Shown: positions 58,861-64,000 of the stretch, in pieces | How positions within the stretch are numbered: the stretch's first letter is position 1 | How the letters are laid out: each line of letters opens with the position of its first letter | Source: Pseudomonadota bacterium | GTDB lineage: Bacteria > Pseudomonadota > Alphaproteobacteria > Micropepsales > Micropepsaceae | NCBI GenBank assembly: GCA_016201105.1 | Contig: JACQDN010000036.1 | Span: 1 to 64,000, forward strand | Length of the DNA: 64,000 bases | Direction of reading: 5' to 3' | Made by a program: the position numbers and the translations under genes | The notes under the pieces: generated by a model | The model's input: the letters and a program-made list of their open reading frames with translations, nothing else | Database searches by the model: none | Told to the model about the DNA's origin: nothing

Positions 58861-58923
58861 TGTATGCGGAGAAGTGAAGCCCTATTCTGATTTGTGGGAT
58901 TTGACTTTCGACTTTCCGCACAC

Positions 58924-59886
58924 ATGCCCTCCTGGCAAAGCGCTCTCTTCGCCCGTTTCTCCCGTATCGCGCGCCCGCGCGCGAGCGGCGTGGAGACCGA
59001 CATCGAGGAGTTGCGCCGCCAATACGACTATCTGACGGATCGCTACGGCGCGATCCAGCCCGATGCGGTATTCGAGGCCGCAAGCGTCGGCCCCATCAAA
59101 GGGGAATGGGTGCGGGTCGATGTCTCCTCGGCGCACCGCATCATCCTTTATCTCCACGGCGGCGGTTACATCTCGGGATCGCCGGAGACCCATCGTCCGT
59201 TGATCGCGCGGCTCTGTCATGCCGGGCAAGCGATTGCTTTCGTGCCGAACTATCGCCTGGCGCCGGAATTCGCATTTCCGGCGGGGTTGCGCGACGCACT
59301 CGATGCCTATCGTCACCTTCTGTCGAGCAAGATTGCGGCGTCGTCTATCATTCTGGCGGGCGATGCTGCAGGCGGCGGTTTGGCCTTCGCCTGCCTGCTC
59401 GCCATCCGCAATGCGGGCCTGGCGATGCCCGCCGGCTGTTTGGCGATGTCACCCTGGGCGGATCTTTCGCTGACCGGCTGGTCGATGCTGCAGAACGCGA
59501 AAAACGATGCGGCTTTGTCCTGGGAACTGCTGTTCGTCAGCGCGCGGCACTATCTGAAGAAAACCAGCCCCGCCGATCCCTACGCTTCGCCGATTTACGC
59601 GAACTTCCGCGACTTCCCTCCGATCATGGTTCATGCCGGCAGCGAAGAGTTGCTGCGCGACGATGCCAGCCGCATCGGCGATCGCGCGGCGGAAGCGGGC
59701 GTACCTGTAAGCGTGGAAATCTATGACGGTATGCAGCACGTATTTCAGGCCAACGCTTATGTGCCCGAAGCCCGGGTCTCGCTGAACCGCTTGGGCGGCT
59801 TCATTCGCCAACGCGTTCCCGATCTCGCCCAGCCGGAAAAGCCGGAAGACGGCACGGATGCGGAGGTCAACCTCGCAACGGGGTGA
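58924..59886 (+). CDS. HSL-family alpha/beta hydrolase homologue with Ala at the nucleophile position
   Basis: LYLHGGGYISGSPETHRPLIA; ILAGDAAGGGLAFA (canonical GDSAGG); EELLRDDA; DGMQHVFQ. Start at MPSWQSALF. Confidence 0.88.
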   Translation: MPSWQSALFARFSRIARPRASGVETDIEELRRQYDYLTDRYGAIQPDAVFEAASVGPIKGEWVRVDVSSAHRIILYLHGGGYISGSPETHRPLIARLCHAGQAIAFVPNYRLAPEFAFPAGLRDALDAYRHLLSSKIAASSIILAGDAAGGGLAFACLLAIRNAGLAMPAGCLAMSPWADLSLTGWSMLQNAKNDAALSWELLFVSARHYLKKTSPADPYASPIYANFRDFPPIMVHAGSEELLRDDASRIGDRAAEAGVPVSVEIYDGMQHVFQANAYVPEARVSLNRLGGFIRQRVPDLAQPEKPEDGTDAEVNLATG

Positions 59887-59955
59887 TCGCGGGCGCTTGC
59901 CGCGACGAATTGCGACAAGTCCGACAAACTTCTTCGGCAATGATTCTTTAGTGTG

Positions 59956-59981
59956 CACGCGAAGCCGCGAAGACGCGGAGG
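59956..59981 (+). repeat. Left 26-bp inverted repeat of GxxExxY unit
   Basis: CACGCGAAGCCGCGAAGACGCGGAGG; perfect reverse complement at 60375-60400. Confidence 0.95.
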
Positions 59982-59986
59982 ACGTG

Positions 59987-60412
59987 ATGTCAGAACGCAC
60001 GGTTGAAGATATTACAGCAGAGATTGTGGACGCCGCTTATCACCTTCATTGTGAGATCGGACCCGGTCTCCTTGAAGCCGTCTATGATACGATCTTGGCT
60101 AAAGAGCTTGAGCGGCGCGGATTCCGCGCCGCTCGACAATTGCCGGTCTCACTGGACTACAAGGGGATGAGATTTCGTAATGTTGGCCGCGTCGATTTAT
60201 TGGTCGAAGGTCAAGTTGTTGTCGAAATCAAATCGGTAGAACACTTGGCCCCTGTACATCTCAAGCAACTATTGACCTATTTGCGTCTCCTGAAGCTACC
60301 CATCGGGCTCTTGATCAATTTTGGCGCTCCGACGCTGAAAGAGGGTTTGCGACGAGTGGTCAACGGGCTCGCGCCCTCCGCGTCTTCGCGGCTTCGCGTG
60401 AATCAGCGTTGA
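59987..60412 (+). CDS. GxxExxY protein (PD-(D/E)XK-like)
   Basis: CEIGPGLLEAVYDTILAKELERRGF; VGRVDLLVEGQVVVEIKSVEHLAPVHLKQLLTYLRLLKLPIGLLINFG. Confidence 0.92.
   Translation: MSERTVEDITAEIVDAAYHLHCEIGPGLLEAVYDTILAKELERRGFRAARQLPVSLDYKGMRFRNVGRVDLLVEGQVVVEIKSVEHLAPVHLKQLLTYLRLLKLPIGLLINFGAPTLKEGLRRVVNGLAPSASSRLRVNQR
60375..60400 (-). repeat. Right 26-bp inverted repeat of GxxExxY unit
   Basis: CCTCCGCGTCTTCGCGGCTTCGCGTG, 26/26 complementary to 59956-59981; inside the CDS 3' end. Confidence 0.95.
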
Positions 60413-60452
60413 CCTAACAGCTGGCTCGTCGGTTTCAGGGGTAGTGCAGGGT

Positions 60453-61748
60453 CTAGGCGCTGGCGGCCAAGGTTGGAGTGCTGAGGCTTTCGGCCAGAAT
60501 GGCAGGGAGCTTGGCGCCGAGGGTTGTTGCGCCCGTCAGTTCCGCATCGCGCAGATCGGCGTCGGAAAAATTGGAATAGCTCAAATCGGTTTCGCCGAAT
60601 TTTACGCGGCGCAAATCGGCGCCGCGAAAATCGGCATAGCGCGCTTCGGCCGCATCGAATCGGGCCGGCAGCAGTCGTGCGTCGGAAATCAGAAGGGGCC
60701 CGAGCTTGGCGTCGCGCAAGTCGGCATTGTTGAGTTTGGCGCCCATGAAATTCACACCGCGCAAATCGGCGCCGCAAAGTTTCGTCGCGCGCAGATCGGC
60801 GCCGGCGAGGTTGCTGCCCTGCAGCGAGGCGCCTTCGAGATTGACGCCATAGAGCATGGCGCCCGGAGCAATAAGAGCGGTAAGCGCGCGATGGGCAAGC
60901 GAACGGATGCCGCGCAAGTCGGTGTCGGTGAGATCGGCCGGCCGGCCTTCGCGGCCGTCGGTTTCCACCCAGCGCGAATGGGATTCCAGCATCTCTTCCA
61001 GCGGTGTCGAAAGCTTTTCGATCGCACGGCCGGTGGGCGCGTCGGTCAGCGCATTGGTGAGATTGGCGCCGTCGAGCACGACCCGCGACATGCGCGCACC
61101 GATGAGGATTGAGCCGGTCAGATCCGCGCCCGTCATGTTGCAGCCGGTGAGGTCGGCGTTTTCCAGATTGGCGCCCGTCAGCTTGGCATCGCGCAAATTC
61201 GCCCGCGTGAGCTTGCAATCGCGCATGATGGCGTCGGTGAAGTCGGCCTGGATTGCCATCGCGCCCGTCATCTTGGCGCGCTCGAGATTGGCGGAGTGCA
61301 GAAGCGCGGCCGGCATTTCCGACGGCCCCACATCGTGCTGCAGCACGCGAAGATTTCCATAGCGGTCTTTTTCCGCGATCGTGCCTTCGCGCAGGTCCGC
61401 TTCATACAAATCCGCGCCGATCAAATTGGCCCCGCGCAGACAGGCGCCGCGCATGTCGGCCCGGCGCATGCTCGCAGCGGTCAGATTCGCGCGACGCAGA
61501 TCGGCGCCGAAGAAGCTCGCCGAATCGAGCCGCGCTCCGGTGAGGTTGGTCTCTTCGAGAATGGCTCCGGTAAAATCTGCGTCAGCCAGATTTCGGCTCG
61601 AAAGATCCAACCCCGACAGATCGCAAAATGCGAAAACGGCGCGCGCCCCGCCCATTCTCCCGGCGTAAAGCATTTCATGGCGGGCGGCGGCGGCGGCGGC
61701 CTGCTTTTGCGTGAGCTTGGAGAAGCTGATGCGGCTTTCGGGCATCAT
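60453..61748 (-). CDS. Pentapeptide-repeat protein
   Basis: Many A(D/N)LXX units: ANLIGADLYEADLREG, ANLENADLTGCNMTGADLTGS, ADFRGADLRRVKFGETDLSYSNFSDADLRDAELTGA. Confidence 0.93.
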   Translation of the reverse strand: MMPESRISFSKLTQKQAAAAAARHEMLYAGRMGGARAVFAFCDLSGLDLSSRNLADADFTGAILEETNLTGARLDSASFFGADLRRANLTAASMRRADMRGACLRGANLIGADLYEADLREGTIAEKDRYGNLRVLQHDVGPSEMPAALLHSANLERAKMTGAMAIQADFTDAIMRDCKLTRANLRDAKLTGANLENADLTGCNMTGADLTGSILIGARMSRVVLDGANLTNALTDAPTGRAIEKLSTPLEEMLESHSRWVETDGREGRPADLTDTDLRGIRSLAHRALTALIAPGAMLYGVNLEGASLQGSNLAGADLRATKLCGADLRGVNFMGAKLNNADLRDAKLGPLLISDARLLPARFDAAEARYADFRGADLRRVKFGETDLSYSNFSDADLRDAELTGATTLGAKLPAILAESLSTPTLAASA

Positions 61749-61991
61749 CAGGATGAACGGCTTTCTTAACGAAATTGCCCCAGGCAGGAATAGTGCGCCG
61801 GACCCCGCTAACACCTGATTAAAAAAAGAAAAGCTGAGTTTTTTCCACCGCTTCCGGGCTAGCCTTGGGAGGTTGAATTTGGTTATGGTCCCCCTCCGCG
61901 GGAGCCACTGGGGTGTCGCCGCAGGCTCAAGACGGGTCCTTACCCGTCCCGGCATCAGTCCACAGGCCGAGACACAAAAAAGAGGTTCGTC

Positions 61992-64000
61992 TTGAACAAG
62001 CGTGCGTTGATGATGACAGCCGCTGCTGTCGCACTGTTGTCCGGAAATGCCCACGCGGACACCGATGTCACGACGGCCACCACGACGGCTTTGTCCACGA
62101 GCACGGCAGGCAATATCACCATCGAAGCGAACGGCTCGATTACCATCAAGGCCGCCAGCCCCGTCGTCACCATTAATTCGAGCAAGACGCTCCTCAACAA
62201 AGGCACGATCAGCAACAAGGACACGACTTCCGCCGTCGGCGTAAAGATCGATCTGTCGTCCGCGTCATTGACCGGATCGTTGGAGAATGACGACGTCATC
62301 GATCTGACGGGAACGGGCACCAACAAGATCGGTGTGCTGCTCGTCGGTGCGAACGCGTTCAACGGCAATCTGCTGTTTGTCGCCAATTCCAAAGTGACGG
62401 TGACGGGCGACAACAGCGTCGGCTTGGAGATCGCCAGCACGTCGATTTTGAACGGCAATCTTACGATCAACGGCAACATCACGGCATTATCCGCAACGAC
62501 AACCGCTGCGACCAACCCGACGGCCATTCGGATCGACGGCACTGTAAACGGCAACATCTCGGTTGGCGGCGCGGTCGGCGCGGTCGGCAGCAATGCCCAA
62601 GCCTTCATCATGACGGGAAACTTGCTGGGAAGTTTCACGAACAAGGGCTCGATCAATGCCAGCGGCACGACTACGCCGAGCAGCACGGCGACCAATCCGG
62701 AAGCCGGTATCGGCTTGGGCATCGGCGGGAATGTGACCGCAGGCATCCTGAACAGCGGACCCACCAGCCCCGGTGACACCACAGCGCGTGGCCTCATCAG
62801 CACCTCCGGTCAGGCGCAGACGATTCTGATTTCTCCCGGTGTCGGCGGCATTACGCCTTTGAGCGGCATCACGATCGGTCTTTACGCAGATGCGACGCTG
62901 GGGACGCAGTACAGCTTCATCAACCGCGGCACGATCAGCGCTTCTCCGCTGAGTCCGAATTTGAATGCCGAAGCGTTTAAAGTGGTCGGTTCGAGTAACA
63001 CGATCAATGTCACATTCAGTGGCGGCCTGTTCAACTCCGGATCGTTCGATGCGGTGACATCCAACGATGCGACGTTCACCGGCTCCAACCTCGCGGCGGC
63101 CGTCTGGATCGGCAACTACGCCACCGTTCCGAAGATCGTGAACGACAAGACCGAGTCCAATCAGGGCGTCATCGCTGCAACGGTGTCCGGCCCAAAGGGC
63201 GGAGCGGCGTATGCGATTCGCTTCGATCCGCTCGCCAATCAGTCCATCAACACGAGCATTACCAACAGCGGCATCATCAGCGCCGTGGCGGCGACGAGCG
63301 ATACCACGATCGGTACCTTGGCGGCCTACGGCATCCTCGATCAGTCGGGCACCATCAACTTCATCAACAATACGGGGACGATCAGCGCCCAGGCCACCAA
63401 GCTCGACGGCAATTCGCAAATAGCGGTTGCCGCCGATCTCTCTGCGAACACCACCGGCGTTACGTTTCTCAATGGCACTGGCTCGACTGTTGTCGGCGAC
63501 GTCGACTTTGGCAGCGGCAACGATACCTTCACCATTATCGGCGCCGCCGGCTCCGGGAATACGTCTCAAATGGTCGGCGATCTGAATTTCGGCGGCGGCG
63601 CCGGTACCGAGCAGCTGACGATCGGTAACTACGCCACTGTCACGGGCGCGCTTAATGAATTGCTGGGCAGTAGCCTGAATGTCGAAGTCATGGCGCAGGG
63701 TACCTTGAACCTGACCAATGGCATCAACGGCGCCTCAGGGAATAACTTCAATGTCAATTCCAACATTTTCACAGTCCATTCCGGCGGCACGCTGGGAATC
63801 GCGCTGTCGCAGGCGTTCGATAACAGTCCTTTCGCAATTATAGATGCCAGCTCTTCCGCCACGTTGGAAACCAATTCCACGATGAAATTGACCTTCGGGT
63901 CGTTCCTGACAGTTACGGGGAACACCGCAGAGTTCATCCTAATCGACACGCCACTAAACCAACTCAGCGTCGATCTCGCACAATTGCGCAGTCAAGTTTG
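61992..64000 (+). CDS. Autotransporter-like beta-helix passenger protein, 3' truncated by window end
   Basis: Signal peptide from TTG at 61992 (MNKRALMMTAAAVALLSGNAHAD); open to the window end; repeated N-x-G-x-I and 'GNISVGG/GSGNDTF' beta-helix type motifs. Absent from the ORF track because no stop lies in the window. Confidence 0.75.
   Translation, partial: MNKRALMMTAAAVALLSGNAHADTDVTTATTTALSTSTAGNITIEANGSITIKAASPVVTINSSKTLLNKGTISNKDTTSAVGVKIDLSSASLTGSLENDDVIDLTGTGTNKIGVLLVGANAFNGNLLFVANSKVTVTGDNSVGLEIASTSILNGNLTINGNITALSATTTAATNPTAIRIDGTVNGNISVGGAVGAVGSNAQAFIMTGNLLGSFTNKGSINASGTTTPSSTATNPEAGIGLGIGGNVTAGILNSGPTSPGDTTARGLISTSGQAQTILISPGVGGITPLSGITIGLYADATLGTQYSFINRGTISASPLSPNLNAEAFKVVGSSNTINVTFSGGLFNSGSFDAVTSNDATFTGSNLAAAVWIGNYATVPKIVNDKTESNQGVIAATVSGPKGGAAYAIRFDPLANQSINTSITNSGIISAVAATSDTTIGTLAAYGILDQSGTINFINNTGTISAQATKLDGNSQIAVAADLSANTTGVTFLNGTGSTVVGDVDFGSGNDTFTIIGAAGSGNTSQMVGDLNFGGGAGTEQLTIGNYATVTGALNELLGSSLNVEVMAQGTLNLTNGINGASGNNFNVNSNIFTVHSGGTLGIALSQAFDNSPFAIIDASSSATLETNSTMKLTFGSFLTVTGNTAEFILIDTPLNQLSVDLAQLRSQV

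Follow-up and report, generated by a model that had tools for sequence, protein, structure and literature searches.

The stretch of DNA that we analysed (the window, 64 kb in all) contains a 141-amino-acid GxxExxY gene at 59987..60412 on the forward strand, which has a predicted PD-(D/E)XK fold and matches the TIGR04256 and PF13366 profiles. It is enclosed by exact inverted repeats, or arms. The left arm, CACGCGAAGCCGCGAAGACGCGGAGG, lies at 59956..59981 on the forward strand and is of the CGCGAAG dialect; the right arm, its exact reverse complement, lies at 60375..60400 on the reverse strand. Even with 3 mismatches allowed, these are the only two matches to the 26-bp sequence in the window, and 100 shuffles give an expectation of 0 such matches. 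An ungapped alignment of the two arms can be lengthened to 32 nt, at 94% identity. Both arms reach into the workings of the gene. The left arm finishes, on its inner side (59977..59981, forward strand), with the Shine-Dalgarno sequence GGAGG, and the ATG at 59987 follows 5 nt past the arm; the right arm supplies the in-frame codons for P130-V138 (PSASSRLRV), and the stop codon ends at 60412. Relatives from the same genus have SASPRLRVN tails that are homologous to this arm-encoded tail. In the mRNA, the Shine-Dalgarno sequence is predicted to be buried in a stem formed by the two arms. The initial annotation had described the perfect repeats, the Shine-Dalgarno sequence within the left arm, and the C-terminal residues encoded by the right arm, and the sequence agrees on all three. 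It had also described a 445-bp unit: the arms do bound such a unit, but the interval between the neighboring genes is somewhat larger (566 bp). The gene also contains a 12-bp perfect palindrome with a 1-nt loop (GAGCGGCGCGGA/TCCGCGCCGCTC, at window positions 60110-60134).

The same annotation had identified the protein as a GxxExxY protein with a PD-(D/E)XK fold, and this is borne out. Its scores exceed the cut-offs of both profiles, at 127.9 bits for TIGR04256 (cut-off 35) and 127.6 bits for PF13366 (PDDEXK_3; cut-off 22), the latter being its sole match in Pfam, and none of the putative active-site residues (E30, D70, E80, and K82) varies across 61 relatives. The AlphaFold model, built from 61 sequences, has a mean pLDDT of 92.8, and its best fold matches in the PDB have low TM-scores throughout (Cas4, MGME1, and lambda exonuclease). 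Given the E...D...ExK residues and the confident model, this is a clear GxxExxY/PDDEXK_3 member of the PD-(D/E)XK superfamily and a predicted nuclease. The arm-encoded tail (about residues 127-141) has a pLDDT of only 51-54 and is predicted to be disordered, so it lies outside the modeled fold. To our knowledge, no function has been assigned to this widespread and annotated family (TIGR04256/PF13366). In the open-access literature, we found no report that links the family to repeats; subscription journals were outside our search and may hold an earlier description. We can also reject the idea that these genes are cargo of plasmids or phages, as relatives appear in just 7 of 72,556 plasmid records and 0 of 50,697 phage records.

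The neighbors of the cassette provide markers for synteny. To the left is an alpha/beta-hydrolase (esterase-like) gene (58894..59886, forward strand) and to the right is a pentapeptide-repeat-like gene (60453..62054, reverse strand); both names are based on sequence. The cassette lies in the interval between their stop codons (59887..60452). These two genes are convergent neighbors in many relatives. Both ends were located in 19 relatives, and in 13 of these the two genes are separated by -4 to 13 bp, as compared to 566 bp in the window. None of these 19 relatives has a GxxExxY gene between the two neighbors. The initial annotation had suggested looking for orthologous loci that lack the unit, and this conserved junction provides them. 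By synteny, the unit in the window was inserted between two convergent genes that adjoin each other in relatives. We could resolve no target-site duplication at the empty junctions that we found; because the relatives' spacers are too diverged and variable to be compared base by base, a duplication can be neither claimed nor excluded there. In one relative (G062), a GxxExxY gene that is 62% identical lies on the opposite side of the same esterase.

The window's own genome (G000) has two GxxExxY genes, which are 62% identical to each other, and both have arms. The exact core occurs only at the window's locus, as one of the variants in a larger family: the 21-nt core has 54 matches with up to 3 mismatches in 3.85 Mb, and nearly all of these occur as inverted pairs. 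The arms also occur in this genome as inverted pairs without the gene. The median length of the gene-less units that we examined (n = 34) is 158 bp, and a central GGCGCGCnnnGCGCGCC palindrome is present in 31 of them; the outer ends of arm units resemble AAGAATG(A/G)TTCACGC. They do not seem to be deletion derivatives of the gene, a possibility that we reject because their interiors match the gene only in short palindrome-like stretches. Copies of the GxxExxY gene do show short matches to the palindrome at the center of these units. Among the arm pairs that we examined, across phyla, we saw no gene other than GxxExxY. Some units in this genome (L027, L029, L038, L030, and L033) have a different central palindrome, of the CGTCATGGCCGGGCTTGTCCCGGCCA or GTCATTGCCCGG type, which resembles published CGTC-tagged repeats (PMC3733652). 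Another unit is nested (L009, at C47:159394-159626), with CGCGAAG arms, which is the dialect of the window's gene, outside and CACGGAG arms inside. Elsewhere in the same genome (L344, on C3), a Y1 transposase-like gene lies near a GTGATACGGGGACAG motif that resembles the published GGGGWSAS ends of TIRYT elements (PMC3733652).

Arms around GxxExxY genes are the rule across phyla and not a local oddity. We scored 77 GxxExxY loci from Alphaproteobacteria, Verrucomicrobia, Planctomycetes, Cyanobacteria, Chloroflexi, Acidobacteria, Bacteroidetes, Gemmatimonadetes, deltaproteobacterial groups, and others by the top-scoring ungapped inverted repeat up to 150 bp from the domain, and we used 231 equally spaced positions in the same loci as controls. 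The score was at least 14 at 66% of the loci and at 0 of the 231 controls, while about a quarter of the loci had no clear arms within 150 bp. The arms follow a common plan: an outer end of (T)TCRCGC and then head-to-tail RCRCNNAG octamers, where NN may be GG, GA, AG, AA, CA, or TA. This pattern is present in all 24 of the GxxExxY genomes that we checked across phyla, with 1 to 105 matches each. Nested units occur outside of the window's genome as well: in Novosphingobium colocasiae (G493; L235, L236, L239, L244, L249, and L251), CGCGGAG arms enclose a complete CGCAAAG unit. Several loci carry these composites, with almost the same spacing each time, which would fit amplification of the whole composite; their architecture is constant and no duplication was seen at their junctions.

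In two unrelated groups, genomes that have the gene also tend to have the arms, a co-occurrence that the initial annotation had proposed to test. Among 60 genomes from the genus, arms are present in 12 of 12 with a GxxExxY gene (4 to 105 matches) and in 11 of 48 without one (Fisher p = 1e-6, although these genomes are related, so their independence is overstated). The other 37 gene-less genomes have no arms, while those 11 keep 1 to 22 matches, which is what one would see if loss of the gene can precede loss of the arms. For Sphingomonas, in a chosen sample of 25 genomes whose site (described below) is occupied by the gene and 25 whose site is empty, arms are present in 25 of 25 occupied genomes (median 30 matches) and in 8 of 25 empty ones (median 0), and just 2 of the empty ones have 3 or more matches. 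We also note a frameshifted GxxExxY pseudogene at C5:28883-29661 of G002 (L052, L058, and L059), whose genome still has 16 arm matches.

The clearest view of gene and arms together comes from a single site in Sphingomonas, between two genes that we take, from their sequences and from prior knowledge, to be fabD and fabG. This site holds the cassette in about half of 201 genomes; the rest have a short junction, another insert, or decayed remnants. For example, L285, L295, and L301 retain decayed GxxExxY remnants along with traces of arms, as if loss were in progress, and a strain very close to S. albertensis (L283; G659 C4:391700-394300) has an unrelated 797-bp insert. Inverted arms are kept at 84 of 85 fabD-fabG cassettes. 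The view of gene and repeats as one unit would be in trouble if syntenic genes had diverged or absent repeats, or if the repeat were scattered without relation to GxxExxY; instead, nearly all of these syntenic genes have matching arms, and across genomes the arms follow the gene, so it withstands both challenges. Within a locus, the left and right arms are of the same dialect in 79 of 81 cases (GG in 30, AG in 26, GA in 19, and AA in 4), and arm identity is 0.91 within loci as compared to about 0.70 between loci.

The dialect also goes with the gene. Among pairs of loci whose fabG genes are at least 90% identical, gene identity is 0.886 if the dialects are the same and 0.695 if they differ (maximum 0.742, n = 128), even though fabD identity stays at 0.90 in the pairs that differ. 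On the gene tree, 8 changes of dialect suffice (the minimum with shuffling is 34), as compared to 35 on the tree of fabD and fabG (the mean with shuffling is 38.8). Similarly, a single clade of GA cassettes is rejected by the flanking genes (delta lnL 2233, p-AU 0.015) but not by the gene itself. That dialect tracks the gene tree and not the flanks shows that the gene is exchanged along with its two arms, as a cassette, and nearly regardless of the phylogeny of the flanks. Some residues correlate with dialect (e.g., 7-14, 88-89, 106, and 121-127), which is a lead only, as this is confounded by phylogeny.

The boundaries of these exchanges can be close to the arms. In several clades (L259/L263, L270/L271, L275/L311, L308/L312, and L317/L106), the flanks are shared up to some 1-5 bp from the arms and the cassettes differ. 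Identity over the first 30 nt of fabG is no lower in swapped pairs (0.979 vs. 0.977), and at the end of fabD it is only slightly lower. Other pairs differ in the spacer just outside the arms: the outer-left 12 nt are 0.27 identical in pairs of differing dialect and 0.73 identical in pairs of the same dialect. There, some of the exchanges may have been less precise, or the spacer may evolve quickly. Also, homologous recombination with a donor whose flanks were nearly identical would leave the same picture, so the swapping could be due to the host's recombination.

What do these observations imply about the element? The gene and its arms behave as a single unit, either wholly present or wholly absent, and they are exchanged as a cassette; arms of the same type are dispersed without the gene. 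The initial annotation had proposed a self-contained mobile or self-propagating unit. The first part of this stands, since the unit is absent from the relatives' junction, co-occurs with its repeats by genome, and is swapped whole, but that it drives its own movement is something that we infer. The gene-less dispersed units, the nested units, the generality across phyla, the arm dialects, and the cassette swapping all go beyond what that annotation described. We lean towards an autonomous element, made of the gene and its terminal repeats, that is accompanied by short non-autonomous units, with nuclease cutting and transposition as its presumed means of spread. In such an element, the GxxExxY nuclease would recognize arms in a dialect-matched way and would nick or cut them at their outer ends or close by. 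Repair or capture of the break would then lead the cassette, or the short arm-bounded units, to be copied or to spread in trans. The process would be akin to a RAYT/REPIN pair or a homing cassette, with a PD-(D/E)XK enzyme in place of the HUH tyrosine transposase. The window's unit would have landed between the two convergent genes. Once the cassette is transcribed, pairing of the arms might hide the Shine-Dalgarno sequence and could keep expression low. Several points count against an autonomous element. In places, the gene is stably inherited by vertical descent; the short units do not derive from the gene by deletion; neither a target-site duplication nor an empty site at the level of bases was resolved; in S. 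albertensis, most of the dispersed arms are GG while the resident cassette is of the AG dialect; and, as mentioned above, about a quarter of the cross-phylum loci have no clear arms. The swapping might also be the work of the host's homologous recombination.

The strongest alternative is that the cassette is an allele under diversifying selection: a chromosomal nuclease (for defense or repair, for example) whose armed allele classes are exchanged by ordinary recombination in the flanks, with arms that are regulatory and dispersed arms that have some other cause. This would fit with the constancy of the fabD-fabG site across the Sphingomonadales, with old allele classes that are about 70% identical on flanks that are over 90% identical, and with the spacers just beyond the arms, which differ in many pairs of differing dialect. 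But it does not explain why dispersed arms are found almost only in genomes that have the gene, why, in other phyla, arms surround the gene even though the sites are unrelated, or why exchange has left no trace at the start of fabG. We consider this alternative to be rather unlikely, but it deserves to be taken seriously.

It is also conceivable that the arms are moved by a known tyrosine transposase, of the RAYT or TIRYT type, and that GxxExxY genes are chance passengers. RAYTs with terminal inverted repeats and dispersed copies have been published (PMC3733652), and the window's genome does encode two weak Y1 transposase genes. However, four arm-rich genomes (G035, G013, G482, and G504) had no match to a Y1 transposase, the Y1 genes of the window's genome and a broken one in N. 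colocasiae are not bracketed by GxxExxY-type arms, and it is GxxExxY that is the sole gene inside the examined arm pairs, across phyla. So we reject a RAYT as the mover of the arms, and we would be quite surprised if it turned out otherwise.

We have even less faith in the idea that the arms are just an mRNA or terminator-like structure that buries the Shine-Dalgarno sequence and controls the expression of the GxxExxY gene, with no role in mobility. It is true that the window's transcript is predicted to fold with its arms fully paired and the Shine-Dalgarno sequence buried (z = -6.6, and 0 of 100 shuffles are as stable), and that the left and right arms co-vary. But perfect arms suffice by themselves for a low folding energy, and tens of gene-less units per genome, presence or absence at clean junctions, and the swapping of cassettes all require something more. 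There was also no match to any Rfam family, so we reject a known structured RNA. The predicted stem may instead be a regulatory side effect, and the dispersed units are not explained by it. Finally, the idea that an element happened by chance to adjoin a gene in a repeat-rich genome, for which only the abundance of the repeat in the window's genome speaks, is refuted by the cross-phylum scoring (66% vs. 0 of 231) and by the 84 of 85 fabD-fabG loci, as well as by the arms around both genes in the window's genome and around most loci elsewhere and by the expectation of 0 in shuffles, and we give it practically no credence.

Returning to the autonomous element, what would it mean? Many bacterial genomes contain scattered RCRCNNAG repeats, and a tie to GxxExxY would give these repeats a likely source and the family a testable role. 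That the gene and the repeats are inherited, lost, and swapped together points to a mobile or self-maintaining element that has been overlooked. Furthermore, arm dialects that track the phylogeny of the protein are a natural data set for the study of protein-DNA recognition.

Among known systems, a classical insertion sequence also has terminal inverted repeats, but the reading frame here has a nuclease-like fold without known transposase activity, and there are no near-identical multiple copies (the two copies in the window's genome are 62% identical). Miniature inverted-repeat elements (MITEs) are similar in that they have terminal inverted repeats, in the size of the gene-less intergenic units (about 130-315 bp), and in having a gene-bearing relative with the same ends. 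They differ in that no target-site duplication was resolved here, where spacers are too diverged for comparison at the level of bases, and in that the interiors of our units are not remnants of the gene but are centered on their own palindrome (31 of 34). I-Ssp6803I is a small single-domain homing endonuclease of the PD-(D/E)XK type. GxxExxY proteins are likewise small single-domain PD-(D/E)XK proteins, and they have a conserved site that may be occupied or empty (fabD-fabG, in 201 Sphingomonas genomes), but there is no intron or intein here, the site is intergenic, and the inverted arms are also dispersed. (PD-(D/E)XK homing endonucleases are reviewed in PMC3943268.) In TIRtrons, long terminal inverted repeats surround a TIRYT gene (Di Nocera 2013, PMC3733652). 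As in our units, the gene lies between the repeats, some of which overlap the ends of reading frames, and families of these repeats are dispersed in some genomes; however, those repeats have a GGGGWSAS motif and surround tyrosine transposases, while ours have another motif and surround GxxExxY.

The closest likeness is to RAYT/REPIN systems and REPtrons, in which a small gene is bracketed by repeats that are dispersed as inverted doublets (Bertels & Rainey 2011, PMC3116915; Nunvar 2010, PMC2817692). In both cases, a small, low-copy chromosomal gene has flanking repeats that are also found throughout the genome as extragenic inverted doublets, several flavors of repeat go with several genes, and units insert into or beside each other. 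But the RAYT enzyme is an HUH (Y1) tyrosine transposase and ours is a PD-(D/E)XK protein whose sole Pfam match is PF13366; the repeats there are 16-nt GTAG palindromes and ours are tandem arrays of 8 bp with a TTCRCGC end; and here the gene lies inside the inverted pair and cassettes are swapped at a fixed site. As our gene is not an HUH tyrosine transposase, the GxxExxY unit is not a member of the RAYT/REPIN systems or of the TIRtrons. We tentatively suggest that GxxExxY may be the enzyme of a new minimal mobile element that is found across phyla, in which a nuclease of about 140 amino acids with a PD-(D/E)XK fold would read dialect-specific octamer arms, move or home its own cassette, and drive short units in trans. 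It would then be a second, independently evolved system of the RAYT/REPIN kind, and if so, such symbioses between a nuclease and dispersed repeats have arisen on two or more occasions, each time with an unrelated enzyme.
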